From: Tritonibacter horizontis
GTDB taxonomy: Bacteria; Pseudomonadota; Alphaproteobacteria; Rhodobacterales; Rhodobacteraceae
DNA: 64,000 nucleotides
Direction of reading: 5' to 3'
Assembly (NCBI RefSeq): GCF_001518015.1
Contig: NZ_LPUY01000008.1
Coordinates: forward strand, 124,001-188,000
The notes below the pieces were generated by a model that ran no database searches, had not been told where the DNA came from, and saw nothing but the letters and a program-made list of their open reading frames with translations. Positions 35,175-49,227 of this stretch are shown here, piece by piece (position 1 is the first letter of the stretch; the number at the start of each line of letters is the position of its first letter). Made by a program: the position numbers and the translations under genes.

Positions 35175-36233
35175 TTAGCGCAACCGGGCCTCTGTTTCCT
35201 TGTCAAAGAGGAATACATCGGCGTCGTTGAATGACAGGCTCACCGAGGTGCCTTCTTCCAGCATATCCTCGCCCCGTGTCTCCACGATCAGTTTGGAACC
35301 GTCGGTGCAGATAAGATGGTCATAGGCCACGGCGCCCAAGCGTTCGCGTAGCTCCAACTGGGCGGTATCCCCTGCTGAGAGGGTTATGGATTGCGGACGC
35401 AGACCGACAATCACCTCCGTGCCAATGGGGGGCAAGGTGACGTTGGGTGCAACAACGCGACCACCGAGCGCGGCGATCTCGACACCTTTGTCCGTCACCT
35501 GACCCGCAACGAAATTCATCCCAGGCGAACCGATGAACCCCGCGACAAAGCGATTGTCGGGGTCATTGTAAAGGTCCATCGGCTTGCCGACCTGCTCGAC
35601 CCGCCCGGCCCGCAGCACCACAATCTTGTCTGCGAGCGTCATCGCTTCGACCTGATCATGCGTTACATAGATCATGGTCGCGCCGATTTCCTTGTGCAGA
35701 CGGGCGATTTCAACCCGCATGTCGACACGCAGCTCGGCATCGAGGTTCGACAACGGCTCGTCAAAAAGGAAGACTTCGGGCCCGCGCACAATGGCGCGTC
35801 CAATCGCAACCCGTTGACGTTGCCCGCCGGACAACGCCTTTGGTTTGCGCTTGAGGTAATCGTCCAGTTTCAGGATGTGGGAGGCCTCAGACACCTTTTT
35901 GGTGATCTCGGCTTTTGGATGGCCGGTCATTTTAAGGCCGAAACCCATGTTTTCTTCGACCGTCATATGCGGATAAAGTGCGTAGGACTGGAACACCATG
36001 GCAACGCCCCGTTCGGCGGCATCGACATTGGTCACATCGCGATTACCAATGTGGATCTGGCCGGATGTGGTTTCTTCCAGCCCGGCCACCATTCGCAGCA
36101 AGGTGGATTTTCCGCACCCGGACGGGCCGACGAAGACGCAGAACTCGCCGTCTTCAATCTGAAGATTTACGTCGTGGATGGTCTGGACTTCACCATATTT
36201 CTTGATGGTATTTGTCAGCGTGACGCCGGTCAT
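35175..36233 (-). CDS. Sugar ABC transporter ATPase (UgpC/MalK type)
   Basis: ATP-binding subunit of a carbohydrate importer (CUT1 class), 352 residues. It has Walker A GPSGCGKST, Q-loop MVFQSYALYPHM, signature LSGGQRQR, Walker B VFLFDEPLSNLD, switch His THDQ, and a C-terminal TOBE domain (GLRPQSITLSAG). It sits downstream of the iclR gene on the minus strand, while its membrane and binding partners are on the plus strand across the divergent promoter. The ATG is preceded by AGGAT. The sugar is inferred from the locus to be a galactoside. Confidence 0.92.
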   Translation of the reverse strand: MTGVTLTNTIKKYGEVQTIHDVNLQIEDGEFCVFVGPSGCGKSTLLRMVAGLEETTSGQIHIGNRDVTNVDAAERGVAMVFQSYALYPHMTVEENMGFGLKMTGHPKAEITKKVSEASHILKLDDYLKRKPKALSGGQRQRVAIGRAIVRGPEVFLFDEPLSNLDAELRVDMRVEIARLHKEIGATMIYVTHDQVEAMTLADKIVVLRAGRVEQVGKPMDLYNDPDNRFVAGFIGSPGMNFVAGQVTDKGVEIAALGGRVVAPNVTLPPIGTEVIVGLRPQSITLSAGDTAQLELRERLGAVAYDHLICTDGSKLIVETRGEDMLEEGTSVSLSFNDADVFLFDKETEARLR

Positions 36234-36287: not shown

Positions 36288-37079
36288 TCAGGTGGGAAAC
36301 TGCCAGCTTTCGGCGGATTCCGAGATATCGTTTGCGGTTTTCAGTAACAGCGGGCGCAGCGTGTCGAGGCTTTCCAAGGACCGCCGCTGCAGCGACGACG
36401 TAATGGAGACTGCTCCCATGACCCGGCCATTGGCGGACAGGATCGGGGCAGCGATACAGATGATCCCGGGCTCGTGCTCTTCTCTGTCGAATGCCACGCC
36501 TTCGGCCCGGATGGCCTCCAGTTCGATCCGAAATTCAGCCTCTGTCGAGAGGGTCTGCGGGGTGTGTCGAAGGTATGCCTGCCGGCGGATCGCATCTTCG
36601 CGGCCGTCGGCGTCCAGATGGGCGATCATCGCCTTGCCGACTCCGGTGCAATAGCCGGGGCCAATTTTGCCCGCCTGGCTGAACATTTCGATCGGGGTCT
36701 GGGCGTTGCGTTTGTCCACATAGAGCACCTGCCCCTGGTCGAGCTGCGCGAGGTGGATTGTTTCGCCAACCGTTTCTGACAGCGCGTCCAAATGCGGCCG
36801 TGCCAAGGGGGCGAGCGAACTTTGGCGCCAGGCCGCATGCGCCAGTCGAACGAGGCGGAGGCCCGGCGCATAGGCTTGGCTCTGTTCGTCGAAACGGAGC
36901 ATCCCCTGATTCGTCAGGGTCTGAAGTAACCGGTACAGAGTCGCCTTAGGGTGGGGCGAGTTTGCCAATAATTCGGCAAAACGGACCGGACGACCAAACT
37001 CAGCAACCTGATCCAGAATCTCCAATGCTTTTCCGACAGTTCCATCGGTGCTGCGCTGCGGCAATTGCGGCGTGGTCAT
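36288..37079 (-). CDS. IclR-family regulator of the galactoside locus
   Basis: Transcription factor of 263 residues. The N-terminal winged helix includes GRPVRFAELLANSPHPKATL and YRLLQTLTNQGMLRF, and the C-terminal effector domain has TGVGKAMIAHL and SITSSLQR-type features. IclR proteins bind palindromic operators and respond to pathway intermediates. Two tandem palindromes at 37152 and 37172 in the divergent region are the likely sites. The effector may be galactose, galactonate or 2-keto-3-deoxygalactonate; this is inference. GGGAGGA precedes its ATG. It is followed by the ATPase gene after 54 bases. Confidence 0.9.
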   Translation of the reverse strand: MTTPQLPQRSTDGTVGKALEILDQVAEFGRPVRFAELLANSPHPKATLYRLLQTLTNQGMLRFDEQSQAYAPGLRLVRLAHAAWRQSSLAPLARPHLDALSETVGETIHLAQLDQGQVLYVDKRNAQTPIEMFSQAGKIGPGYCTGVGKAMIAHLDADGREDAIRRQAYLRHTPQTLSTEAEFRIELEAIRAEGVAFDREEHEPGIICIAAPILSANGRVMGAVSITSSLQRRSLESLDTLRPLLLKTANDISESAESWQFPT

Positions 37080-37151: not shown

Positions 37152-37188
37152 GTTTCAATAGTTGGAAAGATGTTTCATTATTTGGAAC
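37152..37188. promoter_or_regulatory. Tandem IclR-like operators
   Basis: Two 17-base imperfect palindromes, GTTTCAATAGTTGGAAA (37152-37168) and GTTTCATTATTTGGAAC (37172-37188), with centres 20 bases apart, about two helical turns. Both fit a GTTYCA-N5-TGRAAC pattern typical of IclR-type sites. They lie at or just after the expected transcription start of the sugar operon. Confidence 0.65.
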
Positions 37189-37218: not shown

Positions 37219-38472
37219 ATGAAGTTTCTGAAAGGAACGGCCGCAGGTTTTGCAATGGTCGTTGGACTGGCTGCATCCGCACAGGCTGCTGAGCTGACCG
37301 GGACGTTGAAAATTTTCTCGGATATGTCGAACCCGGCACCGCGCGCGGTGATGGAAAAAATGGCGGCGGATTTTGATGCCCTGCACCCGGATCTGACAGT
37401 TGAACTGACCGTCATCGACCGCGAAGCCTACAAGACGCAAATCCGCAACTTCCTGACCGCAAACGCGCCGGATGTCGCCAACTGGTATGCCGCCAACCGG
37501 ATGCGTCCTTACGTTTCTGCCGGCCTGTTCGAGGACGTGTCGGATCTCTGGGGTGAGCCTGCAATCGCCGACAACCTTGCCTCCACCAAGGGCGCGATGA
37601 CCCTGGATGGCAAACAATGGGGCGTGCCCTATACCTACTACCAGTGGGGCGTCTACTACCGCGAGGACATCTACAAAGATCTCGGTCTGGAAGAACCCAA
37701 AGACTGGGAAGCGTTCAAAGCAAACTGCCAGAAGATCCTGGATTCAGGCAAGAAATGCTTCACCATCGGGTCCAAGTTCCTCTGGACGGCCGGCGGGTGG
37801 TTTGACTACCTCAATATGCGCACCAACGGCTATGACTTCCACATGGCGCTGACCAATGGCGAAGTCGAGTGGACAGACGACCGCGTCAAGGCGACCTTTG
37901 CCAATTGGCGCGAACTGATCGACATGGGCGCATTTATCGACAACCACCAGTCCTACAGCTGGCAGGAAGCGCTGCCATTCATGGTCAACGGCGATGCTGC
38001 GGCCTATCTGATGGGGAACTTTGCGGTTGCCCCCCTGCGCGAAGCGGGCTTGGGTGAAGATCAGCTCGATTTCTATCAGTTCCCGGTGATCAACCCGGAT
38101 GTTGAACTGGCAGAAGATGCGCCAACCGACACATTCCACATCCCGTCGGGCGCGCAGAACAAGGAAGCCGCGCGTGAGTTCCTGCGGTATGTGGTTTCGG
38201 CTGACGTGCAGACCGAAATCAACTCCGGCGATGCATTGGGCCAGCTCCCTGTGAACGCGTCTTCATCGGTGGACGATGACGAGATGCTGAACCAGGGTTT
38301 TGACATGTTGTCAGCGAACAGCCCAGGCGGGATCGCGCAGTTCTTTGATCGCGACGCGCCGGCTGAAATGGCATCGGTCGCGATGGAAGGGTTCCAGGAA
38401 TTCATGGTGTTTCCGGACAACCTGGACGACATCCTGAACCGTCTCGAGAAAACACGCCAGCGGATTTACTGA
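37219..38472 (+). CDS. Sugar ABC transporter substrate-binding protein
   Basis: Periplasmic solute-binding protein of the SBP_bac_1 type, 417 residues. A signal peptide ends after about 23 residues (ASAQAAE). The mature part shows the usual features: LKIFSDMSN, DREAYKTQIRNFL, WGVPYTYYQWGVYYREDIYK and a Trp/Tyr-rich set of residues suited to stacking on sugars. GGGAGGAT precedes ATG 37219. It is the first gene of the galactoside operon, followed by an RNA hairpin that may raise its mRNA level relative to the permeases. An alpha- or beta-galactoside ligand is inferred from GH36 and GH42 downstream. Confidence 0.92.
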   Translation: MKFLKGTAAGFAMVVGLAASAQAAELTGTLKIFSDMSNPAPRAVMEKMAADFDALHPDLTVELTVIDREAYKTQIRNFLTANAPDVANWYAANRMRPYVSAGLFEDVSDLWGEPAIADNLASTKGAMTLDGKQWGVPYTYYQWGVYYREDIYKDLGLEEPKDWEAFKANCQKILDSGKKCFTIGSKFLWTAGGWFDYLNMRTNGYDFHMALTNGEVEWTDDRVKATFANWRELIDMGAFIDNHQSYSWQEALPFMVNGDAAAYLMGNFAVAPLREAGLGEDQLDFYQFPVINPDVELAEDAPTDTFHIPSGAQNKEAAREFLRYVVSADVQTEINSGDALGQLPVNASSSVDDDEMLNQGFDMLSANSPGGIAQFFDRDAPAEMASVAMEGFQEFMVFPDNLDDILNRLEKTRQRIY

Positions 38473-38624: not shown

Positions 38625-39548
38625 TTGGCCGATACGATGATGCCGAACTCCGACGGCGCTCCGGGTTGGATTCGCCGCAACCGGCAGGCGCTGGCGCCAT
38701 TCTTGTTTCTGTTGCCGGGGGTCCTGTTTTTTCTGTTTTATGTGATTTTTCCGATCCTGCAGAGTTTCAACCTGTCTTTCTACCGTTGGGATGGGCTCGG
38801 CGAGCCGGTCTATATAGGCGCTGAAAACTACATCGAACTGCTCGATGACCGCGCCTTTGAGGTCTCGATCTGGAACAACCTCAAATGGTTGCTGATGTAT
38901 CTTCTGGCGATCCCTGCAGGGCTGGCGATAGCGTTGTTCCTCAATCAGAATGTCGTTGGTATTCGACTGTATAAGTCGTTGTTTTTCTTTCCATTCGTGA
39001 TCAGCCAAGTGGTCGTCGGGCTGGTGTTCAGTTGGTTTTATGACCCGACATTCGGTCTGCTGAACCAAATCCTCGGGTTCTTTGGGCTTGGGACGCTGAA
39101 TGTCCTGGGCGATCCAAACCTGGTGACTTACGGGATCATCCTTGCAGGTCTTTGGCCGCAGACAGCCTATTGCATGATCCTTTATTTGACCGGATTGAAC
39201 GCCGTAGACCCGGAGCAGGTCGAAGCGGCCCGTTTGGATGGCGCAAAAGGGTTCAAGATGCTTTGGTACGTGATCATCCCTCAGCTGCGACCGGCAACAT
39301 TCATCGCATTTGTGGTGACCATCATTGGCGCTTTGCGGTCCTTTGACCTGATTTCCATCATGACCAATGGCGGGCCGTTTGGGTCCTCGCGCGTTCTGTC
39401 GTTCTACATGTTTGAAAAAGCCCTGTCTGAATATGGGTTCCGCATGGGCTATGGCGCGGCCATTGCCGTGGTGCTGTTCCTGATCATGCTCCTGTTCATC
39501 GCCTACTTCCTGTGGTCGATGTACGAAGAAGAGAAAGGCGGCCGCTGA
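38625..39548 (+). CDS. Sugar ABC transporter permease, UgpA/MalF type
   Basis: Inner-membrane permease of 307 residues with six predicted membrane segments and the EAA loop EAARLDGAKGFKMLWYVIIP that docks the ATPase. The TTG at 38625 is the likely start: GGGAGG at 38612-38617 lies seven bases upstream, while the first ATG (38637) is too far from it. A low-efficiency TTG start fits lower need for permease than for binding protein. Its stop overlaps the next permease start (TGATG). Confidence 0.92.
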   Translation: MADTMMPNSDGAPGWIRRNRQALAPFLFLLPGVLFFLFYVIFPILQSFNLSFYRWDGLGEPVYIGAENYIELLDDRAFEVSIWNNLKWLLMYLLAIPAGLAIALFLNQNVVGIRLYKSLFFFPFVISQVVVGLVFSWFYDPTFGLLNQILGFFGLGTLNVLGDPNLVTYGIILAGLWPQTAYCMILYLTGLNAVDPEQVEAARLDGAKGFKMLWYVIIPQLRPATFIAFVVTIIGALRSFDLISIMTNGGPFGSSRVLSFYMFEKALSEYGFRMGYGAAIAVVLFLIMLLFIAYFLWSMYEEEKGGR

Positions 39549-40396
39549 TGTTCCCGCGTCCAATTCAGAAATCCTCGTCCGCCTGGGCCGCCACCTATCA
39601 GGCCATGGTGCCGATGGCGCTGGTGCTGTGGTTGCTGCCGTTGATCGCGGTGGCGGTCTTTTCGATCAAGCCGGATGTGGATTTCACCACCGGCAACTAT
39701 TGGGGCTGGCCATCTTCGTTCAAAGGGTTCGAGAACTACGGCAAGGTCTTCTTCGCATCCGATATGCCGCGCTATCTGCTGAACTCGGTACTGATCACGG
39801 TGCCGACGGTGATCGGTGCTGTGGCATTGTCCTGCATGACCGGCTTTGCGCTGGGCGTGTACAAATTTCGCGGTAACCTGTTGTTGTTCTTCATGTTTGT
39901 AGCGGGAAACTTCGTGCCGTTTCAGATCTTGATGGTCCCGGTTCGTGATCTGACGCTGGATATGGGGCTCTACAATACCAAGACGGGTCTGGTTTTGTTC
40001 CATGTCGCGTTTCAAACCGGATTCTGCACCCTGTTCATGCGGAATTTTATCCGTGCCTTGCCGTTTGAGCTGATCGAGGCCGCGCGGGTTGAAGGGGTGG
40101 CAGAGTGGCGGATCTTCTGGTTCGTGGTGCTGCCACTGATGAAGCCCGCGATTGCAGCATTGTCGGTGCTGATCTTTACGTTCATCTGGAACGATTACTT
40201 CTGGGCAGTGGTCCTGACCCAGGGCGCAGAGAGCCAGCCAGTCACGGCGGGGATCACCTCGTTCAACGCGCAATACCGTGCCGCCTATCACCTGATGAGC
40301 GCGGGCTCGATTGTCGCGGCCCTGCCGCCGGTGGCGATGTTTTTCCTGATGCAGCGACATTTCATTGCAGGTCTGACCCTTGGGGCTGTCAAATGA
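39548..40396 (+). CDS. Sugar ABC transporter permease, UgpE/MalG type
   Basis: Second permease of the importer, 282 residues with six membrane segments. The EAA loop reads IEAARVEGVAEWRIFWFVVL. The N-terminal segment MVPMALVLWLLPLIAVAVFS and C-terminal end GLTLGAVK are typical of MalG-type proteins. Start ATG 39548 overlaps the stop of the first permease, and its stop overlaps the alpha-galactosidase start (ATGA), tying uptake to hydrolysis in one mRNA. Confidence 0.92.
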   Translation: MFPRPIQKSSSAWAATYQAMVPMALVLWLLPLIAVAVFSIKPDVDFTTGNYWGWPSSFKGFENYGKVFFASDMPRYLLNSVLITVPTVIGAVALSCMTGFALGVYKFRGNLLLFFMFVAGNFVPFQILMVPVRDLTLDMGLYNTKTGLVLFHVAFQTGFCTLFMRNFIRALPFELIEAARVEGVAEWRIFWFVVLPLMKPAIAALSVLIFTFIWNDYFWAVVLTQGAESQPVTAGITSFNAQYRAAYHLMSAGSIVAALPPVAMFFLMQRHFIAGLTLGAVK

Positions 40397-42459
40397 GCGA
40401 AGAGTTGCAACTCTGGCGGATTGATGCGCCGGGGCAAACCCTGGTTCTCGCGTCTGATGGCGGTCTTCCCGGCGCGATCTACTGGGGCCCTGCGTTGCAA
40501 CCGGAGACGGACCTCGCAGCACTGGCCCGTGCCTGCGAACAAGAGGTGACGGGCGGCATGATCGACCAATTGCCGCCACTGTCCCTATGTCCCGAAACCT
40601 CTCGGTCGTTTGAAGGCCAGCCGGGCATGGTGGTCTATCGGGACGGGGCGCAGCTCTACCCTCGGTTTCGATTGGAAGAAGCAAACGGCAATACCTTTAC
40701 CTGCCGTGATCACGACCAGAGGCTGACCCTGATCTTTGATGTCCAGGTGCTGGGTGAAACGATCGTGGCTGGCACCACGCTGATCAGCGACGACGAGGTT
40801 ACCCTGCATCATCTGGCCGCCCCCGTGCTTCCGGGGCCGCAAATGGGGCAGGAGATCGTTGACTTCTCTGGCCGCTGGATCGGCGAGTTTCAAATGGAAC
40901 GTGCCCGGTGGCGGGCTGGCATTCACAAGCGTGAGGCGCGTTCAGGCCGGTCGGGACATGAGCATCCGCCCCTAGCCTATTTCCCCGAAACAGGGGCATC
41001 CAATACCCAAGGCACAGTCTTTGCCATGCATTACGGCTGGTCCGGCGGGCATGTGATGCTGGCGGAGGAGATGCCGTCGGGGCGGCGACAAATCCAATGG
41101 GGGCACGCGACGGGGACGCGAGCGGCGGGAACCAAGTTCCGCACGGCGCCGCTCTATCTTGCGGTGTCACAACATGGTTTCAACGGTTGCGCCGTGGCGT
41201 TCCAGCGATTGCTTCGTGACCATGTGGTGGTTTGGCCAAAGCCGGAAACACCGCGCCCGGTTCATTACAACTGCTGGGAGGCCGTCTATTTCAAGCACGA
41301 CCTCAGCGTCCTCGGAGAGATTGCCGAGCGTGCGGCCGATCTGGGCGCGGAGCGTTTCGTTCTGGACGATGGCTGGTTCGGCAAGCGGGATGATGACAGT
41401 TCCTCGCTGGGCGATTGGGAAATCGACCGGCGCAAATGGCCTGACGGGCTGACCCCGCTGATCGAACATGTTGAGCAGCTTGGTATGGTCTTTGGTCTTT
41501 GGGTCGAGCCTGAGATGGTGAACCTCGACAGCGATCTCGCCCGCGCGCACCCCGATTGGATTCTGGGGCCGGTTGACCAGATAGAGGGGCGACAGCAGCG
41601 GGTGCTGGACCTGTCGATGGAAGTGGTCCGCGCGTATCTTTTTCAAAAGATCTCAGCGCTTCTGGCGGACTACCGGATCGACTATCTGAAATGGGATCAC
41701 AACCGATTGCTCCCCATTGCGGATGCCGAACAGACAGAGGGATTTTATGCGTTGCTCCGGGAGCTGCGGCACAAATTTCCCCAAGTTGAGATTGAAAGCT
41801 GCGCGTCGGGTGGGGGACGGATTGATGCGGGTGTTCTGAGCCTGACGCAGCGGGTCTGGCTTTCGGATAGCAACGATGCATTGGAACGGCTGCGCATTCA
41901 GCATGATGCGGCGTTGCTTCTGCCGATGTCCGTGACGGGCTCTCATGTGGGGCCACGGACCTGCCATACTTCGGGGCGGACGATTGACATGCCAATGCGG
42001 GCCTGGGTCGCAGCACAGCGCCACCTTGGCTTTGAGATGGATCCGCGAGAATTGACCGACAAAGAGGCCGATGTGCTGCGCCGGGTAACCACATGGTGGA
42101 AAACGAACCGGGATTGGCGGCTGATGGCCGATATCTTGCGTTTGGATGCGGCCGATCCGACGGTGGTTGCAGAACAGCAGCTTGCCCAGGATGGGGCGAA
42201 GTTTGTGGTCTTTGCGGGCCGCGCACAGGCCGCTCGGCAGATCATGCCTAGACCATTGCGACTGACCCAATTGGATCCACAGGCGCGCTATCGTATCAAT
42301 CTCGTCAATCGGGAGGATCTTCACCATCTTTCGCGCGGCTCAACCGCCCTGAAGGACGGTCCGATGGTGCTTGGTGGTGACGTCCTCATGCAGCAGGGAT
42401 TGACCCTGCCGTGGCAATTTCCGCAAACGATCTGGGTGATCGAGGGAGAAAAACTATGA
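40393..42459 (+). CDS. Alpha-galactosidase, GH36
   Basis: Glycoside hydrolase family 36 enzyme of 688 residues that releases galactose from alpha-galactosides such as melibiose or raffinose. An N-terminal beta domain precedes the barrel. Seen: FVLDDGWFGKRDDD, the nucleophile Asp435 in LKWDHNR, CASGGGRID, and the acid/base Asp492 in WLSDSND; the 57-residue gap between the two Asp fits the family. There is no signal peptide, so it acts in the cytosol on imported sugar. ATG 40393 overlaps the permease stop; its own stop overlaps the dehydratase start. Confidence 0.93.
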   Translation: MSEELQLWRIDAPGQTLVLASDGGLPGAIYWGPALQPETDLAALARACEQEVTGGMIDQLPPLSLCPETSRSFEGQPGMVVYRDGAQLYPRFRLEEANGNTFTCRDHDQRLTLIFDVQVLGETIVAGTTLISDDEVTLHHLAAPVLPGPQMGQEIVDFSGRWIGEFQMERARWRAGIHKREARSGRSGHEHPPLAYFPETGASNTQGTVFAMHYGWSGGHVMLAEEMPSGRRQIQWGHATGTRAAGTKFRTAPLYLAVSQHGFNGCAVAFQRLLRDHVVVWPKPETPRPVHYNCWEAVYFKHDLSVLGEIAERAADLGAERFVLDDGWFGKRDDDSSSLGDWEIDRRKWPDGLTPLIEHVEQLGMVFGLWVEPEMVNLDSDLARAHPDWILGPVDQIEGRQQRVLDLSMEVVRAYLFQKISALLADYRIDYLKWDHNRLLPIADAEQTEGFYALLRELRHKFPQVEIESCASGGGRIDAGVLSLTQRVWLSDSNDALERLRIQHDAALLLPMSVTGSHVGPRTCHTSGRTIDMPMRAWVAAQRHLGFEMDPRELTDKEADVLRRVTTWWKTNRDWRLMADILRLDAADPTVVAEQQLAQDGAKFVVFAGRAQAARQIMPRPLRLTQLDPQARYRINLVNREDLHHLSRGSTALKDGPMVLGGDVLMQQGLTLPWQFPQTIWVIEGEKL

Positions 42460-44171
42460 CGAAAGATCGCCGCAGCAAAGGGTGGTACGGAAAGCTGGAC
42501 AAGGACGGGTTCATTCACCGGTCCTGGATGAAAAACCAGGGGTTTCCCGATCATGCGTTTGACGGACGACCGATTATCGGGATCTGCAACACGTGGTCGG
42601 AACTGACACCCTGTAACTCCGGTTTGCGGGACCTGGCCGAAGGCGTCAAGCGTGGCGTCTGGGAGGCGGGCGGGTTCCCGGTGGAGTTTCCGGTGATGTC
42701 CCTTGGCGAGACGCAGATGAAGCCGACGGCGATGCTGTTTCGCAACCTTCTGGCGATGGATGTCGAGGAATCCATTCGTGCCTATGGTATTGACGGTGTG
42801 GTTCTTCTTGGGGGGTGCGACAAGACAACGCCGGGCCAGCTGATGGGCGCCGCGTCGGTCGATCTGCCCGCCATCGTGGTGTCGTCCGGACCGATGCTGA
42901 ATGGCAAATATCGCGGGAAGGATATTGGCTCTGGCACCGACGTGTGGAAATTCTCAGAGGCCGTCCGCGCGGGCGAGATGACCCTGAAAGACTTCATGAA
43001 CGCCGAATCCGGCATGAGCCGGTCCAAAGGGGTCTGCATGACCATGGGCACCGCCTCCACCATGGCCTCGATCGTTGAGGCAATGGGCATGTCGCTGCCA
43101 ACCAATGCTGCATTGCCTGCGGTTGATGCGCGCCGCATGGCGCTGGCGCATCTGACCGGCAAGCGGATCGTCGAGATGGTAGAAGAGGACCTGAAACCGT
43201 CTGACGTGATGACCAAAGACGCCTTTGTGAATGGTATTCTCGCCAATGCTGCGGTGGGCGGGTCAACCAACGCGGTGGTGCATCTCCTGGCGCTTGCGGG
43301 CCGTGTCGGAGTCGATCTCGATTTGACGGATTTTGAAATCGGGTCGGAAATCCCACTGTTGGTGAATTGCATGCCTTCCGGCAAATACCTGATGGAAGAT
43401 TTCTGTTATGCGGGCGGCATGCCTGTCGTGCTGAAGCAGTTGCAGGACAACGGGCATCTGCGCGCCGCAAAGACGGTCCTGGGCGGTGACATCACCGCCT
43501 ATGCGGATGGCGCAGAGTGTTTCAATGAGGACGTTATCCGCAGCTTCGAAGCACCGGTGAAGCCCGCTGCTGGCCTGCGGGTGCTGCGCGGTAACCTCGC
43601 GCCCAACGGGGCGATCGTGAAACCCTCCGCCGCATCGGATCACCTGCTTGAACACGAAGGCGAGGCTTTTGTGTTCGAGAGCATCGAGGACATGAAAGCC
43701 AATATCGACCGTGAGGATCTGCCCGTCACCGCAGAGACCATCCTCGTGCTCAAGGGCTGTGGTCCGAAGGGCTATCCGGGGATGCCCGAAGTTGGCAACA
43801 TGCCGATCCCTCGCAAGCTGGTCACCCAAGGGGTGAAAGACATGATCCGCGTGTCGGATGCACGCATGTCCGGCACCGCATTTGGCACAGTCATCCTGCA
43901 TGTCTCGCCTGAGGCGCAGGCGGGCGGGCCGCTGGCGCTGGTCAAGACGGGTGATCGCATTCGGGTCTCTGCCTCCGGGGGAGAGCTGGAATTGCTGATC
44001 TCGGCCGAGGAAATGGAGGCCCGTCGCGCGGACTGGACCCCTGACGCACCGCATTACACCCGCGGCTATGCAAAATTGTACATCGATCACGTCCTGCAGG
44101 CCGACAAGGGTGCGGATTTGGATTTTCTGGTGGGCAAAGACACCCGCCCCGTTACGAGGGAGAGCCATTGA
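42456..44171 (+). CDS. IlvD/Edd-family sugar-acid dehydratase (probable galactonate dehydratase)
   Basis: Iron-sulfur dehydratase of 571 residues. The [2Fe-2S] ligands Cys53 (TPCNSGL), Cys121 (GGCDKTTP) and Cys194 (GVCMTMG) and the metal-site Lys123 have the same spacing as Rhizobium L-arabinonate dehydratase, which also accepts D-fuconate and D-galactonate. Beside a 2-keto-3-deoxygalactonate kinase and KDPGal aldolase, the likely reaction is D-galactonate to 2-keto-3-deoxygalactonate. This would replace the unrelated enolase-type DgoD of enterobacteria. L-arabinonate activity cannot be ruled out. The start overlaps the GH36 stop. Confidence 0.88.
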   Translation: MTKDRRSKGWYGKLDKDGFIHRSWMKNQGFPDHAFDGRPIIGICNTWSELTPCNSGLRDLAEGVKRGVWEAGGFPVEFPVMSLGETQMKPTAMLFRNLLAMDVEESIRAYGIDGVVLLGGCDKTTPGQLMGAASVDLPAIVVSSGPMLNGKYRGKDIGSGTDVWKFSEAVRAGEMTLKDFMNAESGMSRSKGVCMTMGTASTMASIVEAMGMSLPTNAALPAVDARRMALAHLTGKRIVEMVEEDLKPSDVMTKDAFVNGILANAAVGGSTNAVVHLLALAGRVGVDLDLTDFEIGSEIPLLVNCMPSGKYLMEDFCYAGGMPVVLKQLQDNGHLRAAKTVLGGDITAYADGAECFNEDVIRSFEAPVKPAAGLRVLRGNLAPNGAIVKPSAASDHLLEHEGEAFVFESIEDMKANIDREDLPVTAETILVLKGCGPKGYPGMPEVGNMPIPRKLVTQGVKDMIRVSDARMSGTAFGTVILHVSPEAQAGGPLALVKTGDRIRVSASGGELELLISAEEMEARRADWTPDAPHYTRGYAKLYIDHVLQADKGADLDFLVGKDTRPVTRESH

Positions 44172-44172
44172 A

Positions 44173-44943
44173 ATGGACCTGAACGCAACATTTCATGACC
44201 TTGAGGGGGCTTCTGTTTTCATCACTGGCGGGGGATCCGGTATCGGGGCTGCGCTGACCGAGGGATTCCTGCGGCAGGGGGCCAAGGTGGCCTTTGTCGG
44301 GCGCTCGGATGCCAGCCCATTTGTCGAGCGGATGGCGCGCGAGACTGGAAATCGCCCGCTGTTTATTCGATGCGACATTACCGATGTCACCGGGCTAAAG
44401 GCGGCGATTGCCGAGGCGGCAGAGGCGCATGGCCCCATTGGTGTGCTGGTCAACAACGCTGCCAACGATCAGCGCCATGCCACGCTGGATGTGGACGAAG
44501 AGTTCTGGGATTGGTCGCAGGCGATCAATCTCAAGGCTTACTTTTTTGCCTGCCAGGCCGTGGTTCCGGGAATGCAAAAAATGGGTGGCGGCGCCATCGT
44601 CAACTTTACCTCGATTAGCTACATGATGGGCAATAGCGGATACGCTGCCTACACCACAGCCAATTCAGGCATCAATGGTTTGACCCGCAGTCTTGCCCGA
44701 GAGTTTGGCCCCGACCGGATTCGCGTCAATGCGCTGGCACCGGGATGGGTGCTAACTGAAAAACAACTCGACAAATGGGCCACGCCGGAGGCGCTCGCCG
44801 CGCATCTCGACCGTCAGTGCCTCAAGGATCACCTCGCCCCGCAAGACATCGTCGAATCCACTCTCTTTCTGGCATCCAGAGCGAGCCGAATGATTTCGGG
44901 CCAGGCCATGGTGGTCGACGGCGGAGTGGTGGTGTCGGGATGA
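44173..44943 (+). CDS. SDR sugar dehydrogenase with Asn in place of catalytic Lys
   Basis: Short-chain dehydrogenase of 256 residues, expected to oxidise galactose to galactonolactone with NAD(P)+. The nucleotide site TGGGSGIG lies at 18-25, NNAAN near 94-98, and Ser147 and Tyr160 of the catalytic set are in place (FTSIS and YAAYTTAN). The residue normally Lys in YxxxK is Asn164. The C-terminal end MISGQAMVVDGGVV is typical of sugar dehydrogenases of this group. ATG 44173 has GGGAGAG upstream. The altered residue makes the assigned activity less certain, though position between dehydratase and kinase genes supports it. Confidence 0.8.
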   Translation: MDLNATFHDLEGASVFITGGGSGIGAALTEGFLRQGAKVAFVGRSDASPFVERMARETGNRPLFIRCDITDVTGLKAAIAEAAEAHGPIGVLVNNAANDQRHATLDVDEEFWDWSQAINLKAYFFACQAVVPGMQKMGGGAIVNFTSISYMMGNSGYAAYTTANSGINGLTRSLAREFGPDRIRVNALAPGWVLTEKQLDKWATPEALAAHLDRQCLKDHLAPQDIVESTLFLASRASRMISGQAMVVDGGVVVSG

Positions 44944-45854
44944 CCCAAGAACCACACAGCACGCCAAGCTGGATCGCCGTTGACTGGGGCACGTCGCATC
45001 TTCGCATATGGCCAATGGATGATGATGACCGTCCGTTGTGCAGAATTGACTCTGACAAGGGGATGGGTGTCTTGGCCCCCACGGCCTATGAAGAGACACT
45101 TTTGACCTTGTTAGAGCCGTATATTCAGGGGCGCGAACAATTGGAGGTCATCTGCTGTGGGATGGCAGGATCCCGGCAGGGTTGGGTGGAGGCGCCTTAT
45201 CTGGTGGCCCCATGTGCGCCCCCCTCCGTCGACACAGCGACCCGGGTCGTGACAGCGGACAAGCGGCTCGATGTGCGCATCCTGTCGGGCGTGATGCAGC
45301 ACGCCCCGGCGGATGTGATGCGGGGCGAAGAGACCCAGATCGCCGGTGTTCTCGCCGCAGAGCCGGAGATGGACGGGGTGATTTGCCTTCCGGGCACGCA
45401 TACCAAATGGGTTTCGGTGCGCGCCGGACAGATCACCCATTTTGCGACTTTCCTCACCGGAGAGCTTTTTCAACTGGTGAGCAAGCAATCGGTGTTGCGC
45501 CATTCTGTTGCGACCGAAGGCTGGGACCAAGGCGCATTTGAGGCGGGCTGCCATGCTGCGATCAAGTCGCCGCATGGGATCGCCAATGCGTTGTTCCGAC
45601 TGCGCGCAGAGGCTTTGTTGAGCGATCTGGACCCGATTATCGCCCGCTCGCGGGCTTCGGGCTACCTGCTGGGGCTGGAGATCGAGGATATGCGACGAAA
45701 CTGGCAAGACAAGACCGTGGTGATCGTTGGCGAAAATGAGATTGCCAGAGCATATGCGGTCGCCTTGCAAAGCCAAGGGGCCGAAACGATCGTCGCCGAT
45801 GCCGAAGAGATCACGCTTGCGGGGCTGCGGACCGCTCGGGCGCCAAAGACATAA
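44940..45854 (+). CDS. dgoK: 2-dehydro-3-deoxygalactonokinase
   Basis: Phosphorylates 2-keto-3-deoxygalactonate at C6 with ATP; 304 residues. The N-terminal phosphate-binding motif IAVDWGTSHLRIW, the CCGMAGSRQGW segment and LPGTHTKWV are DgoK-family marks. The start overlaps the SDR stop (ATGA). An in-frame codon at 44775 lies inside the SDR gene. Its presence is the clearest sign that this locus follows the De Ley-Doudoroff route for galactose rather than the Leloir route. Confidence 0.93.
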   Translation: MTQEPHSTPSWIAVDWGTSHLRIWPMDDDDRPLCRIDSDKGMGVLAPTAYEETLLTLLEPYIQGREQLEVICCGMAGSRQGWVEAPYLVAPCAPPSVDTATRVVTADKRLDVRILSGVMQHAPADVMRGEETQIAGVLAAEPEMDGVICLPGTHTKWVSVRAGQITHFATFLTGELFQLVSKQSVLRHSVATEGWDQGAFEAGCHAAIKSPHGIANALFRLRAEALLSDLDPIIARSRASGYLLGLEIEDMRRNWQDKTVVIVGENEIARAYAVALQSQGAETIVADAEEITLAGLRTARAPKT

Positions 45855-45864
45855 GGAACAGAAT

Positions 45865-46470
45865 ATGAGCCGAGAGATTATCGCAATTCTCCGCGGGTTG
45901 CCCCCCGAGGACGCCATAGCGGTTACGAATGGATTGCTGGAGGCGGGGATTACGCGCATCGAGGTGCCGCTGAACTCTCCGCGTCCGTTTGAGAGCATCG
46001 AAAAAATGATCCTGCACGCCTCGGACCAGGCGCTGATCGGGGCGGGGACGGTGCTTGATACCGTCGCTGTGCAACGGCTTAAGGATATTGGCGCTCAGAT
46101 GGTGGTCTCTCCGGACTGCAATCCGGATGTGATCGCGGCGACCAAGGCGGCCGGCATGTTGTCCTACCCCGGCGTGTTGACCCCGACCGAAGCCTTTTCC
46201 GCTCTGCGCGCCGGTGCGGATGGGCTCAAGTTCTTTCCGGCGTTCAAATTGGCTGTCGACGGATTTACCGCGCTCAAGGCCGTGTTGCCTCAGGACACCA
46301 AGACCTATGCCGTTGGCGGTGTCGGACCCGGCAATTTCGCGGAATGGAAGGCGGCGGGCATCACCGGGTTCGGGATTGGCACGTCGCTTTATAAACCGGG
46401 ACAAAGCGCCAAAGAGGTCGCGGCCAATGCACGGGCGCTGGTCAAAGCTTATGACGAGGTCGCATTGTGA
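45865..46470 (+). CDS. dgoA: 2-dehydro-3-deoxy-6-phosphogalactonate aldolase
   Basis: Class I KDPG/KDPGal-type aldolase of 201 residues that splits 2-keto-3-deoxy-6-phosphogalactonate into pyruvate and glyceraldehyde-3-phosphate. Seen: the catalytic Glu region ITRIEVPLNSP, the SYPGVLTPTEA loop, the Schiff-base Lys in GLKFFPA, and GGVGPGNFAEW phosphate loop. AAGGA precedes the ATG. The stop overlaps the lactonase GTG (GTGA). Confidence 0.93.
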   Translation: MSREIIAILRGLPPEDAIAVTNGLLEAGITRIEVPLNSPRPFESIEKMILHASDQALIGAGTVLDTVAVQRLKDIGAQMVVSPDCNPDVIAATKAAGMLSYPGVLTPTEAFSALRAGADGLKFFPAFKLAVDGFTALKAVLPQDTKTYAVGGVGPGNFAEWKAAGITGFGIGTSLYKPGQSAKEVAANARALVKAYDEVAL

Positions 46471-47312
46471 CTGTGGAAATTTTCAGCTCCGTTCCCTGTA
46501 AACTCGGTGAAGGTCCGCTGTGGCATCCTGTGCGCAATCAGCTGTTCTGGTTCGATATTCTCGGCCAAAAAATGATTTCCAAGGAGGGTGACGCAGAACG
46601 CACCTGGCAGTTTGACGAATGTCACTCTGCGGCGGGTTGGGTGGATCGGGACACGCTCCTGCTGGCCAGCGAAACCGGGCTTTGGCAGTTTGATCTGCTG
46701 ACCGAAAAGCGTACTCTTTTGTGCCCGCTGGAAGCGGACAATCCGACAACACGGTCCAACGATGGCAGAGCCGACCCTTGGGGCGGGTTCTGGATCGGTA
46801 CGATGGGGTTCAATGCGGACCCCAAGGCCGGCGCGATTTATCGGTTCTATCGCGGTGAACTACGTCAACTTGTGCCCGATGTGACCATTTCCAATGCGAT
46901 CTGTTTCGCGCCGGACCGGAGCTGTGCCTATTATGTCGATACAGAGGTCGGGCGCATCATGCGGCAATCTCTGGCGGCGGAGGATGGCTGGCCCGAGGGC
47001 GATCCGACTGTTTTCCTGGACCTGAGTGCAGAGGATTTCGGCGTGGATGGCGCTGTTGTGGATCGTCACGGAAATCTCTGGAATGCTCAGTGGGGGGCAG
47101 GGCGCGTGGTCTGTTACGACCCTAATGGTGCCGTATTAGAGACGATTTCCCTGCCGACGCCCCAAACGACATGCCCCGCATTCGGCGGTACGACCCTTTC
47201 GACGCTATACATTACGTCGGCCGCTGACGGTATCGACGTAGCGCCCGCCGGATGCACCTTCGTCGTTACCACCGGCGCCTCTGGCCAACCCGAACACCCA
47301 GTGATCCTGTGA
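46467..47312 (+). CDS. SMP-30/gluconolactonase-family lactonase
   Basis: Sugar lactonase of 281 residues with a six-bladed propeller fold. The metal ligands appear as Glu15 (KLGEGPLWHP), Asn143 (ISNAIC) and Asp194 (FGVDGAVVD); the substrate loop SNDGRADPWGGFWIGTMG is also typical. It should open galactonolactone made by the SDR to galactonate, the dehydratase substrate. It starts with GTG overlapping the aldolase stop and lies eight bases before the GH42 gene. Confidence 0.9.
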   Translation: MTVEIFSSVPCKLGEGPLWHPVRNQLFWFDILGQKMISKEGDAERTWQFDECHSAAGWVDRDTLLLASETGLWQFDLLTEKRTLLCPLEADNPTTRSNDGRADPWGGFWIGTMGFNADPKAGAIYRFYRGELRQLVPDVTISNAICFAPDRSCAYYVDTEVGRIMRQSLAAEDGWPEGDPTVFLDLSAEDFGVDGAVVDRHGNLWNAQWGAGRVVCYDPNGAVLETISLPTPQTTCPAFGGTTLSTLYITSAADGIDVAPAGCTFVVTTGASGQPEHPVIL

Positions 47313-47319
47313 GATTTTG

Positions 47320-49227
47320 ATGAAACGTACCCTTGGAACCTGCTACTACCCGGAACATTGGTCGACCGACATCTGGGAAAGCGATGCCACGCGCATGGCG
47401 GAGGCCGGATTGACCTGGGTGCGGATCGGTGAGTTCTCTTGGTCGCGACTGGAGCCGACTCCGGGGCAGTTGTGCTGGAACTGGCTCGACCAGGCGATCG
47501 AGGTTCTGGGCAGCAGGGGCCTGAAGGTTGTTCTGGGAACGCCAACTGCGACCCCGCCGCGCTGGATGGCGGAGCGTCATCCGGATATGTTTGCCGTTAA
47601 TCAATTTGGTCAAAAACGCGGCTTTGGGTCGCGGCGGCACTATTGCTTCAGCCATGAAGGGTATTTTGCGGAAAGCCAGCGGATCACGCGGCTGATGGCA
47701 GAGCGCTACGGGGCCAATCCGCATGTTGCCGCGTGGCAGACAGATAATGAATATGGCTGCCATGATACGGTGATCAGCTATTCAGATGCAGCTGGTCGGG
47801 CATTTCAATCGTGGTTGCGCACGGCCTTTGACGACGACATCGAGGCCCTGAATGCCGCTTGGGGCAATGTGTTCTGGTCGATGGAGTATCGGGATTTTAC
47901 CGAAATCGGTCTGCCCAACCTCACGGTGACAGAACCGAACCCAGCGCATGTTCTTGCGTTCAAAAGGTTCAGTTCGGACCAGGTGATTGCGTTCAATCGG
48001 GCCCAGGTCGAGATCATCAAGGAACACTCTGCCGCGCCGATTTCGCATAATTTCATGGGTCGCGTGACGGATTTCGACCATTTCAAGCTCGGTGCGGATT
48101 TGGAAATTTCCACCTGGGACAGCTACCCGCTTGGGTTTCTGGAGGATCGGGCGGGCGCGAGCGCGGCGGAGCAACGTGCCTTTTCCCAGCAAGGGGACCC
48201 GGATTTTCAGGCCCTGCATCACGATCTGTACCGCGCGGTCGGGCGTGGCCGCTGGTGGGTGATGGAGCAACAGCCCGGGCCTGTGAATTGGGCGCCGTAC
48301 AATCCGTCGCCGTTGCCGGGAATGGTTCGGCTCTGGACCTGGGAGGCCTTTGCCCACGGGGCCGAGGCCGTGTGTTATTTTCGCTGGCGTCAGGCCCCCT
48401 TTGCGCAGGAGCAGATGCATGCGGGCATGGTGCGACCGGATCACAAGGACGCGCCTGCGATCATCGAAGCCCGCCAGGTGGCCGAAGAGCTTCGGGATGC
48501 ACCGGATTTGCAACCGTCCCAAGCACCTGTCGCGATCCTCTTTGACTATGATGCCGATTGGGCTTGGTCGACCCAACCTCATGGCGCAGGGTTGAGCTAT
48601 TTTGGTCTGATCCTTGATCACTACAAGGCGCTGCGCCGTCTTGGTGTGACGATTGATATCCTGCCGGCAGAAACGCGGGATTTCTCGGGCTATCGTTTGA
48701 TCCTTGCACCCGGCCTGATGCATATGCCGCAAGACTTGAAACAGGCCTTGTCAGAGAGTGACGCGGAGATCCTGGTGGGTCCGCGCAGCGGTGCGCGCGA
48801 TGCGCATTTCAATATCCCGACCTCACCGCTACCGCCGGACCTGCCTGGTCTGGATGTAACCGTCGCGCGGGTCGAAAGCCTGCGGCCCGATCTACCGCGG
48901 CCTTTGGCAGGGGGCGGCGCCGTCATGCACTATGTCGAGGAATTGGAAGGTTCTGCGGTGCCGCTGCTGCAAACCGATTCCGGTGCTGCGGTTGCGGTGC
49001 GTGATGGGAGTATGACCTATTGCGGGGCGTGGCTCGACCCGGTTGGAATGGATCGGTTGCTAAAAGTCCTTGGCCAAGCGGCGGGTCTGGAGATGCGTGA
49101 TTTGCCGGTCGGCGTGCGCACCCGCCGCACTGCAACGGAGGAGTTCTGGTTCAACCACAATGCCACGCCTGTCGAGACGGAGGTTGGCCTTTTGCCGGCT
49201 GCGGGTGTCTTGCGTCGCCCGCGCTGA
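47320..49227 (+). CDS. Beta-galactosidase, GH42
   Basis: Glycoside hydrolase family 42 enzyme of 635 residues that cuts beta-galactosides, in the cytosol (no signal peptide). The catalytic barrel has the acid/base Glu144 in WQTDNEYG and the nucleophile Glu316 in WWVMEQQPG; a trimerisation domain (VAILFDYDADWAW) and a small C-terminal domain follow. The Cys cluster that binds zinc in some GH42 enzymes is only partly present (Cys109, Cys147). Last gene of the galactoside operon, ending six bases from the convergent radC. The TTG three bases before the ATG is a less likely start. Confidence 0.92.
   Translation: MKRTLGTCYYPEHWSTDIWESDATRMAEAGLTWVRIGEFSWSRLEPTPGQLCWNWLDQAIEVLGSRGLKVVLGTPTATPPRWMAERHPDMFAVNQFGQKRGFGSRRHYCFSHEGYFAESQRITRLMAERYGANPHVAAWQTDNEYGCHDTVISYSDAAGRAFQSWLRTAFDDDIEALNAAWGNVFWSMEYRDFTEIGLPNLTVTEPNPAHVLAFKRFSSDQVIAFNRAQVEIIKEHSAAPISHNFMGRVTDFDHFKLGADLEISTWDSYPLGFLEDRAGASAAEQRAFSQQGDPDFQALHHDLYRAVGRGRWWVMEQQPGPVNWAPYNPSPLPGMVRLWTWEAFAHGAEAVCYFRWRQAPFAQEQMHAGMVRPDHKDAPAIIEARQVAEELRDAPDLQPSQAPVAILFDYDADWAWSTQPHGAGLSYFGLILDHYKALRRLGVTIDILPAETRDFSGYRLILAPGLMHMPQDLKQALSESDAEILVGPRSGARDAHFNIPTSPLPPDLPGLDVTVARVESLRPDLPRPLAGGGAVMHYVEELEGSAVPLLQTDSGAAVAVRDGSMTYCGAWLDPVGMDRLLKVLGQAAGLEMRDLPVGVRTRRTATEEFWFNHNATPVETEVGLLPAAGVLRRPR

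Follow-up and report, generated by a model that had tools for sequence, protein, structure and literature searches.

SDRs form a very large family, in which the lysine of the YxxxK motif is taught as essential. In the ketoreductase domains of PKS enzymes this lysine and the tetrad asparagine have switched places. YxxxN has been named as a motif of the complex SDRs (PMC3144213) and is also mentioned in PMC10864336, and the Lys and Asn of mammalian FAS appear to have traded places (PMC4635001). Mutants of FabG have put the essentiality of the lysine in doubt for one enzyme: E. coli FabG K155A, K155R, K155I and K155E were active in vivo and supported growth, with K155A showing lower in vitro activity and no significant NADPH binding detected (PMC7973133). 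According to the same paper, the same Lys-to-Ile change in Drosophila ADH led to loss of activity. SimC7 is described as working with Ser-Ile-His by a substrate-assisted route.

The closest described systems to the gene analysed here are the sulfoquinovose dehydrogenase of P. putida (PMC12133307) and the L-arabinose 1-dehydrogenase of H. huttiense (PMC6336799), both of which use NAD. The former shares our residue numbering and has the tetrad Asn119-Ser147-Tyr160-Lys164, in which Tyr160 and Lys164 contact the nicotinamide ribose and Tyr160 and Ser147 the C1 hydroxyl, while Asp99 contacts the C2 hydroxyl and Arg101 and Gln198 the C3 hydroxyl (PMC12133307). The latter, presumably the same enzyme as structure 7wwx, has a kcat/Km for D-galactose only 2.9-fold below that for L-arabinose (PMC6336799). 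D-galactose/L-arabinose 1-dehydrogenases of the Gfo/Idh/MocA type (4ew6, 6jnj) have the same presumed reaction but belong to a different family. We found no description of Asn at the Lys164 place in a sugar dehydrogenase, and no enzymatic, cofactor or structural measurements on the Asn-type relatives of this gene, in the literature searched, which included few subscription journals.

An SDR with Asn164 in a galactose operon

Within the window, by which we mean the whole 64,000-nucleotide stretch of Tritonibacter horizontis DNA analysed here, positions 44173-44943 (+) translate into 256 amino acids and a stop, with ATG as start codon and TGA as stop codon. The first-pass annotation had placed Ser147 and Tyr160 in register and read Asn164 (AAT) at the lysine position of YxxxK, and translation and codon reading bore this out. 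The protein reads Ser147-x12-Tyr160-x3-Asn164, with the Ser/Tyr spacing and the tetrad Asn of an SDR, and its tetrad positions are Asn119, Ser147, Tyr160 and, replacing Lys, Asn164. The cofactor motif TGxxxGIG is present as T18-G19-G20-G21-S22-G23-I24-G25, of which G19, G20, G23, I24 and G25 are kept in both the Asn-type and the Lys-type relatives described below. Neither the window protein nor 102 further rows of that comparison have the classical lysine; all of them read Asn at position 164. The gene and its relevant codons are as follows.

44173..44943, + strand: SDR of 256 aa with a YxxxN motif, predicted to act as an NADP-preferring D-galactose/aldose 1-dehydrogenase
44302..44304, + strand: Arg44 codon CGC, NADP-type residue after beta-2 (Arg in 100/102 full-length Asn-clade rows and 2/75 Lys-type rows)
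44527..44529, + strand: Asn119 codon AAT, tetrad Asn, retained
44539..44541, + strand: Tyr123 codon TAC (Tyr in 102/102 full-length Asn-clade rows, 4/75 Lys-type rows and 0/15 sister Lys rows)
44611..44613, + strand: Ser147 codon TCG, catalytic Ser
44650..44652, + strand: Tyr160 codon TAC, catalytic Tyr
44662..44664, + strand: Asn164 codon AAT, classical Lys position

Five Pfam families matched the window protein, SDR models first (PF13561, PF00106), and GFO_IDH_MocA was not among the five. The best NCBIfam model, D-xylose 1-dehydrogenase XylB (XylDhXylBProt, NF053674), scored 273 bits against a cut-off of 400; the likeness to XylB is one of profile. An AlphaFold2 model built with 55 clade sequences had a mean pLDDT of 89.4 and was weakest around residues 151-160 (below 50 at 151-153), with an average of 55 in the last block. 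Foldseek ranked 7wwx first (TM 0.94), followed by 4lvu/5wjs and then the sulfoquinovose dehydrogenase entries; Pfam, the AlphaFold model and this first match all place the protein in the SDR fold. Both 7wwx and the sulfoquinovose dehydrogenase structures (9gwu/9gwv/9gww) resemble it at fold TM 0.89-0.94 and 44-46% identity. Asn119-Ser147-Tyr160 and Asp99/Arg101/Gln198 are common to the window SDR and 9gwu. In the two known enzymes, however, position 164 is Lys and beta-2 is followed by an NAD-type Asp; the window SDR differs in Asn164, Arg44, Tyr123 and an altered C-terminus. No chain of known structure from the Asn clade was seen, and the three best sequence matches of known structure are all Lys-type. 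Within its own genome, the window gene was the only Y-x3-N protein among the best 30 of 48 SDR matches, which comprised 25 S-Y-K, 1 T-Y-K, 1 S-Y-S, 2 A-T-R and 1 S-Y-N. The YxxxN motif is shared with the complex SDRs (FAS/PKS ketoreductase), but those are domains of large multifunctional proteins and the window SDR is a stand-alone protein of 256 aa that keeps Asn119, with no Lys moved there.

The gene stands in a galactose-catabolic operon, a context befitting a D-galactose 1-dehydrogenase, and the first-pass description of the pathway as otherwise intact was right, the operon genes being present:

35175..36233, - strand: ABC transporter ATPase (Pfam; ORF)
36288..37079, - strand: IclR-type regulator, divergent to the operon (Pfam; ORF)
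37219..38472, + strand: putative galactoside-binding protein, ABC (start inside an ORF opening at 37162; synteny; comparison with the R. litoralis cluster)
38625..39548, + strand: ABC permease 1 (ORF; synteny; so named in a syntenic locus)
39512..40396, + strand: ABC permease 2 (ORF; synteny; so named in a syntenic locus)
40393..42459, + strand: alpha-galactosidase-like glycoside hydrolase, GH36 by reading (start inside an ORF opening at 40105; synteny)
42456..44171, + strand: IlvD/Edd-family dehydratase, presumed galactonate dehydratase (start inside an ORF opening at 42411; NCBIfam PRK06131 above cut-off, translated from 42453)
44940..45854, + strand: DgoK, 2-dehydro-3-deoxygalactonokinase (ORF; so named in syntenic loci; no NCBIfam match at 1e-20)
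45865..46470, + strand: DgoA (start inside an ORF opening at 45727; NCBIfam PRK09140 above cut-off)
46467..47312, + strand: SMP-30/gluconolactonase-family lactonase (ORF; so named in a syntenic locus; no NCBIfam match at 1e-20)
47320..49227, + strand: beta-galactosidase, GH42 by reading (ORF opens at 47317; so named in a syntenic locus; no NCBIfam match at 1e-20)

The alpha-galactosidase-like gene had a distant NCBIfam match far below the cut-off and is named alpha-galactosidase in a syntenic locus. A galactose cluster described for R. litoralis has the gene order of the window, without the IlvD gene (PMC3141670). The IclR regulator and ABC ATPase beside the operon are laid out as listed for R. 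litoralis cluster 1.

Conservation and origin of Asn164

When a genome collection was scanned with the window protein, 121 relatives were confirmed, and the best 80 of them, i.e. those nearest to the Asn-type query, were kept; Ser147, Tyr160 and Asn164 were present in all of these (80/80). Around the same best 80 of 121, DgoK and DgoA were each found in 74 loci, beta-galactosidase in 73, lactonase in 66, alpha-galactosidase in 51 and IlvD/Edd in 45. Two more genome searches, covering 385 and 398 genomes, together with plasmid records and further loci, then widened the set, part of the listed matches being read. This gave 178 rows with the window included, some of them one genome from two collections, comprising 103 Asn and 75 Lys. 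Whether orthologues have N or K here, a question raised by the first-pass annotation, depended on their distance from the window protein: Asn was found in 97/97 relatives at 60% identity or more (98 rows with the window) and Lys in 66/66 rows below 55%, the 55-60% band holding 5 Asn and 9 Lys. A sequence error, which the annotation had allowed for, is ruled out by these 97 relatives. One Asn fragment from a plasmid was left out, leaving comparison sets of 102 Asn and 75 Lys rows. Among 211 distinct SDR rows from all fetched loci, 100 were Y-x3-N, each with Asn119 and Tyr123 (100/100).

Codon 164 is AAT in 75 rows and AAC in 28 (window included), and the use of both indicates that the residue was held through synonymous change. 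Nei-Gojobori estimates of dN/dS against seven orthologues were ~0.03-0.09 (7/8 pairs gave a value, the eighth being saturated), ratios made rough by dS >1. The five loci labelled Roseobacter (L072, L074, L078, L085, L086) were Asn-type (5/5). A contig labelled Nocardioides marinus (Actinomycetota; L033) bears a whole roseobacter-type operon with an SDR 89% identical to the window's, and this assembly is probably mislabelled or mixed. The plasmid fragment mentioned above (L205:8977-9513) is a truncated Asn-type SDR gene with ~162 aa left, lying among arsenic and metal genes of an Ensifer plasmid; it is without its own entry in the gene table, which is incomplete, and no galactose operon is listed in that stretch.

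All Asn rows fell on one side of a single branch (SH-aLRT 96), corresponding to one change, in a quick maximum-likelihood tree (midpoint-rooted, no bootstraps, 44/108 inner branches weak). The tree was built from 51 Asn and 60 Lys rows after thinning at 80% identity and with column 164 masked. The nearest Lys rows were a small group (L157, L169, L194), followed by a group with Phyllobacterium L203 and S. meliloti L204. Only Arg44, Tyr123 and Asn164 were present in at least 97% of the 102 Asn rows and absent from the 15 sister Lys rows, a strict list that depends on these thresholds; nearly as sharp were the differences at Phe50, Ser45 and Arg176 and about three extra C-terminal residues. Asp43, as in NAD enzymes, was found in 72/75 Lys rows but in just 2/102 Asn rows, and from its near absence the clade is predicted to prefer NADP. 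Asn119, Ser147 and Tyr160 were conserved in Asn-type and Lys-type rows alike, and Asp99, Arg101 and Gln198 were invariant (102/102 Asn and 75/75 Lys rows), so that of the contact and tetrad residues of sulfoquinovose dehydrogenase the Asn clade keeps all except Lys164. Two Asn-type rows of related genomes (L155, L156) have Asp43-Leu44 instead of Gly/Gln-Arg and keep Tyr123 and Asn164. Judging by these residues they have likely returned to NAD preference, and their retention of Asn164 indicates that cofactor type and Asn are separable, not tightly tied.

Sister galactose operons with Lys-type SDRs (L203 from Phyllobacterium, L204 from S. meliloti pSymB, L222, L225-L227 and L229-L231) have the SDR-DgoK-DgoA-lactonase order of the window, and their SDRs are ~50-59% identical to the window's. 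They differ from it in having Lys164, His, Gln or Phe at position 123, and Asp43 in 12/15 rows. Among the sister Lys loci whose flanks were examined (11/15 rows), DgoA and lactonase were found in 11/11 and DgoK in 10/11; the SDR leads the DgoA/lactonase genes on the same strand in 9/11 and is divergent in L223 and L224. Beyond the sister groups, eight Lys-type loci were examined (L207, L228, L233-L238), and DgoA was found in none (0/8), with single matches to DgoK (L236), lactonase (L237) and IlvD/Edd (L235). As the sister Lys genes stand with the same DgoA, lactonase and DgoK, the replacement occurred inside one galactose-catabolic lineage. Lys was replaced by Asn once and the change was then fixed, so that the window protein is probably a working natural variant, neither a broken enzyme nor a sequencing error. 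The FabG K155 variants, in contrast, are laboratory mutants, whereas the change in the window clade is natural and fixed.

Proposed activity and the place of the lost lysine

We consider it likely, on the strength of sequence and gene context, that the window SDR has the classical SDR fold and works as an aldose 1-dehydrogenase with Asn164 for Lys164, most likely acting on C1 of D-galactose with NADP+. Its substrate would be the C1 hydroxyl of D-galactose, possibly also of L-arabinose or D-fucose, and NADP+ would take the reaction to a lactone that would then be handled by the lactonase, dehydratase, DgoK and DgoA of the operon. Tyr160 would serve as the base, Ser147 would hold the anomeric oxygen, and Asp99, Arg101 and Gln198 would hold the sugar. 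The lost positive charge would be tolerated, we suggest, because the hydroxyl of a hemiacetal has a higher acidity than that of an ordinary alcohol and because oxidised nicotinamide brings a positive charge of its own.

In the SDR fold helices E and F lie side by side, and we take residues 123 and 164 to be one turn beyond 119 and 160, respectively. Tyr123, on the neighbouring helix, was fixed on the same branch as Asn164, and from this geometry we propose a Tyr123-Asn164 pair: Asn164 would still hydrogen-bond the nicotinamide-ribose hydroxyls, together with Tyr123. That the two jointly replace the lysine in ribose holding and proton relay, giving a Lys-free tetrad Asn-Ser-Tyr-Asn in an unchanged operon, is a tentative proposal, which we regard as possible rather than probable. 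That Tyr123 and Asn164 occur together counts as a single evolutionary event, whatever the number of descendants. The residue itself, its one origin and its conservation, the operon and the coupled changes are shown by the sequences; that the Asn clade is enzymatically active, prefers NADP and uses Tyr123 in this way is what we infer from comparison.

The clade presents a natural loss of the lysine in an unchanged pathway, accompanied by one helix-neighbour residue and a cofactor-type switch, and its bearers are the galactose operons of marine alphaproteobacteria. Lys-type relatives are still 50-59% identical, so that orthologues on both sides are directly comparable. If the proposal is true, Lys-type and Asn-type orthologues would form a natural pair for dissecting the contribution of the lysine, and a galactose dehydrogenase could be named for roseobacters.

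A relocated basic residue could instead take the place of Lys164, whether Lys121, Lys197, Lys218 or one from the neighbouring subunit, leaving the textbook mechanism in force; a relocation of this kind is described for the ketoreductase domain of mammalian FAS, whose Lys and Asn seem to have been exchanged (PMC4635001). The three lysines are frequent in the clade (Lys121 in 96/102 rows, Lys197 in 92/102, Lys218 in 96/102), but positions 121 and 197 are also basic in 72/75 and 75/75 Lys-type rows and Lys218 is found in 58/75, indicating that they already served other purposes before the loss of Lys164. Arg occupies position 176 in 102/102 clade rows and in only 2/15 sister Lys rows; against all Lys-type rows, however, it is not particular to the clade (59/75), and, at 12 residues or about three helix turns beyond 164, a distance deduced from residue spacing, it is unlikely to reach the site. 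Of the positions that are basic in at least 90% of the clade, Arg44 alone is rare among the Lys-type rows overall; each of the others is basic in half or more of those 75 rows. A FAS-type swap with the tetrad Asn was ruled out, position 119, the Lys site of the switched enzyme, being Asn in 100/100 distinct Asn-type rows. A newly gained Lys or Arg is not evident either, only Arg44 being specific against all Lys-type rows and Arg176 being rare just in the sisters. The nearby alternative Lys that the first-pass annotation had envisaged thus found no counterpart in the sequence comparison as a new acquisition; a pre-existing Lys (e.g. 121 or 218) may fill the role of Lys164. Overall we regard a relocated basic residue as unlikely.

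Galactose oxidation outside the operon and the SDR outside galactose operons

The first-pass annotation had offered two alternatives, a subgroup with another mechanism or a loss of dehydrogenase activity. Under the second, the protein would keep a binding or structural role and galactose would be oxidised by a Gfo/Idh enzyme elsewhere in the genome. The lysine is central in textbook SDR catalysis, and a search of the own genome for another galactose dehydrogenase, as the annotation had advised, did find a Gfo/Idh-type L-arabinose/D-galactose candidate (L219, G000:C54:19849-20964). It matches the R. etli D-galactose 1-dehydrogenase 4ew6 at E 2e-100 and the A. brasilense L-arabinose 1-dehydrogenase at 6e-92, so the SDR need not be the sole such enzyme in this organism. 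The candidate was recognised through solved-structure matches, by which only this one of 14 Gfo/Idh matches in the genome was searched; of the 14, 10 were scanned with NCBIfam and none of these 10 reached a curated cut-off. It adjoins a second IlvD/Edd gene, which shares 57% identity with that of the window across 499 residues, and the two are probably an L-arabinose/D-galactose cluster. Published assignments also place the step outside the operon. In PMC3687685 the S. meliloti galactose dehydrogenase is given as gal (SMc00588), separate from the pSymB Lys-type gene L204. R. litoralis grows on galactose, and the oxidation step is given to a gene outside the cluster that resembles the A. brasilense L-arabinose 1-dehydrogenase; the gene at the SDR place is listed in that paper only as 'short chain dehydrogenase' and no complete galactose pathway is assigned (PMC3141670).

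Searching 30 genomes for the Gfo/Idh candidate at 1e-40, however, found it in 7/21 Asn-type genomes (the window genome and six others) and in 6/9 Lys-type genomes, so that 14/21 Asn-type genomes had no Gfo/Idh dehydrogenase match at this threshold. The Leloir route was rejected for the same 30 genomes, galactokinase being above the cut-off in 0/30 with one sub-threshold match (G247) and without any match in the own genome, where the membrane PQQ dehydrogenase TIGR03074 also had no match. In nine same-family genomes scored 100% complete (G022, G154, G331, G543, G568, G594, G597, G672, G691), some of them in up to ~110 contigs, the SDR is accompanied by DgoK, DgoA, lactonase and beta-galactosidase, and there is neither a galactokinase match nor a Gfo/Idh dehydrogenase match at 1e-40. 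Among the routes searched (galactokinase, Gfo/Idh), the Asn-type SDR is the best candidate galactose dehydrogenase in these nine. With the low dN/dS and the conservation of the remaining catalytic and sugar-contact residues, these genomes argue against decay, and we hold lost activity to be quite unlikely. Of the two first-pass alternatives, the subgroup with another arrangement is favoured by the one fixed origin, purifying selection, conserved residues, conserved operon and absence of a Gfo/Idh match from 14/21 genomes, and lost activity is disfavoured.

An active enzyme could also work on another substrate or in the reverse direction, e.g. by reducing a lactone or keto-sugar, a reaction that would not need the Lys. 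The NADP-type Arg44 arose on the same branch as the change at 164, which would suit a reductase, and 3/80 loci (best 80 of 121) have none of nine operon genes (L055, L102, L105). Set against this, the operon contains a lactonase, a kinase and an aldolase with no second dehydrogenase evident by gene reading and a scan of part of the ORFs; the Lys-type sisters stand with DgoA and lactonase at every locus examined (11/11), nine of which share the gene order; and the sugar-contact residues are unchanged. We therefore judge another substrate or direction to be very unlikely, and retain oxidation of D-galactose at C1 as the preferred reading.

Five of the 80 close loci (best 80 of 121) lack both DgoK and DgoA, namely the three above and two more, L093 with only the beta-galactosidase and L103 with only the lactonase of the nine operon genes. 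Flanking ORFs were scanned with Pfam at all five, and no sugar-catabolic enzyme was found in those scanned at L055 (5), L102 (4) and L105 (5). At L103 (4 scanned) a lactonase, the SDR and an aldose 1-epimerase stand in a row, which fits C1 oxidation of an aldose. At L093 (2 scanned) a tryptophan-halogenase-family gene (L093:6446-7996) separates the Asn-type SDR from a GH4 glycosidase, ahead of the beta-galactosidase.
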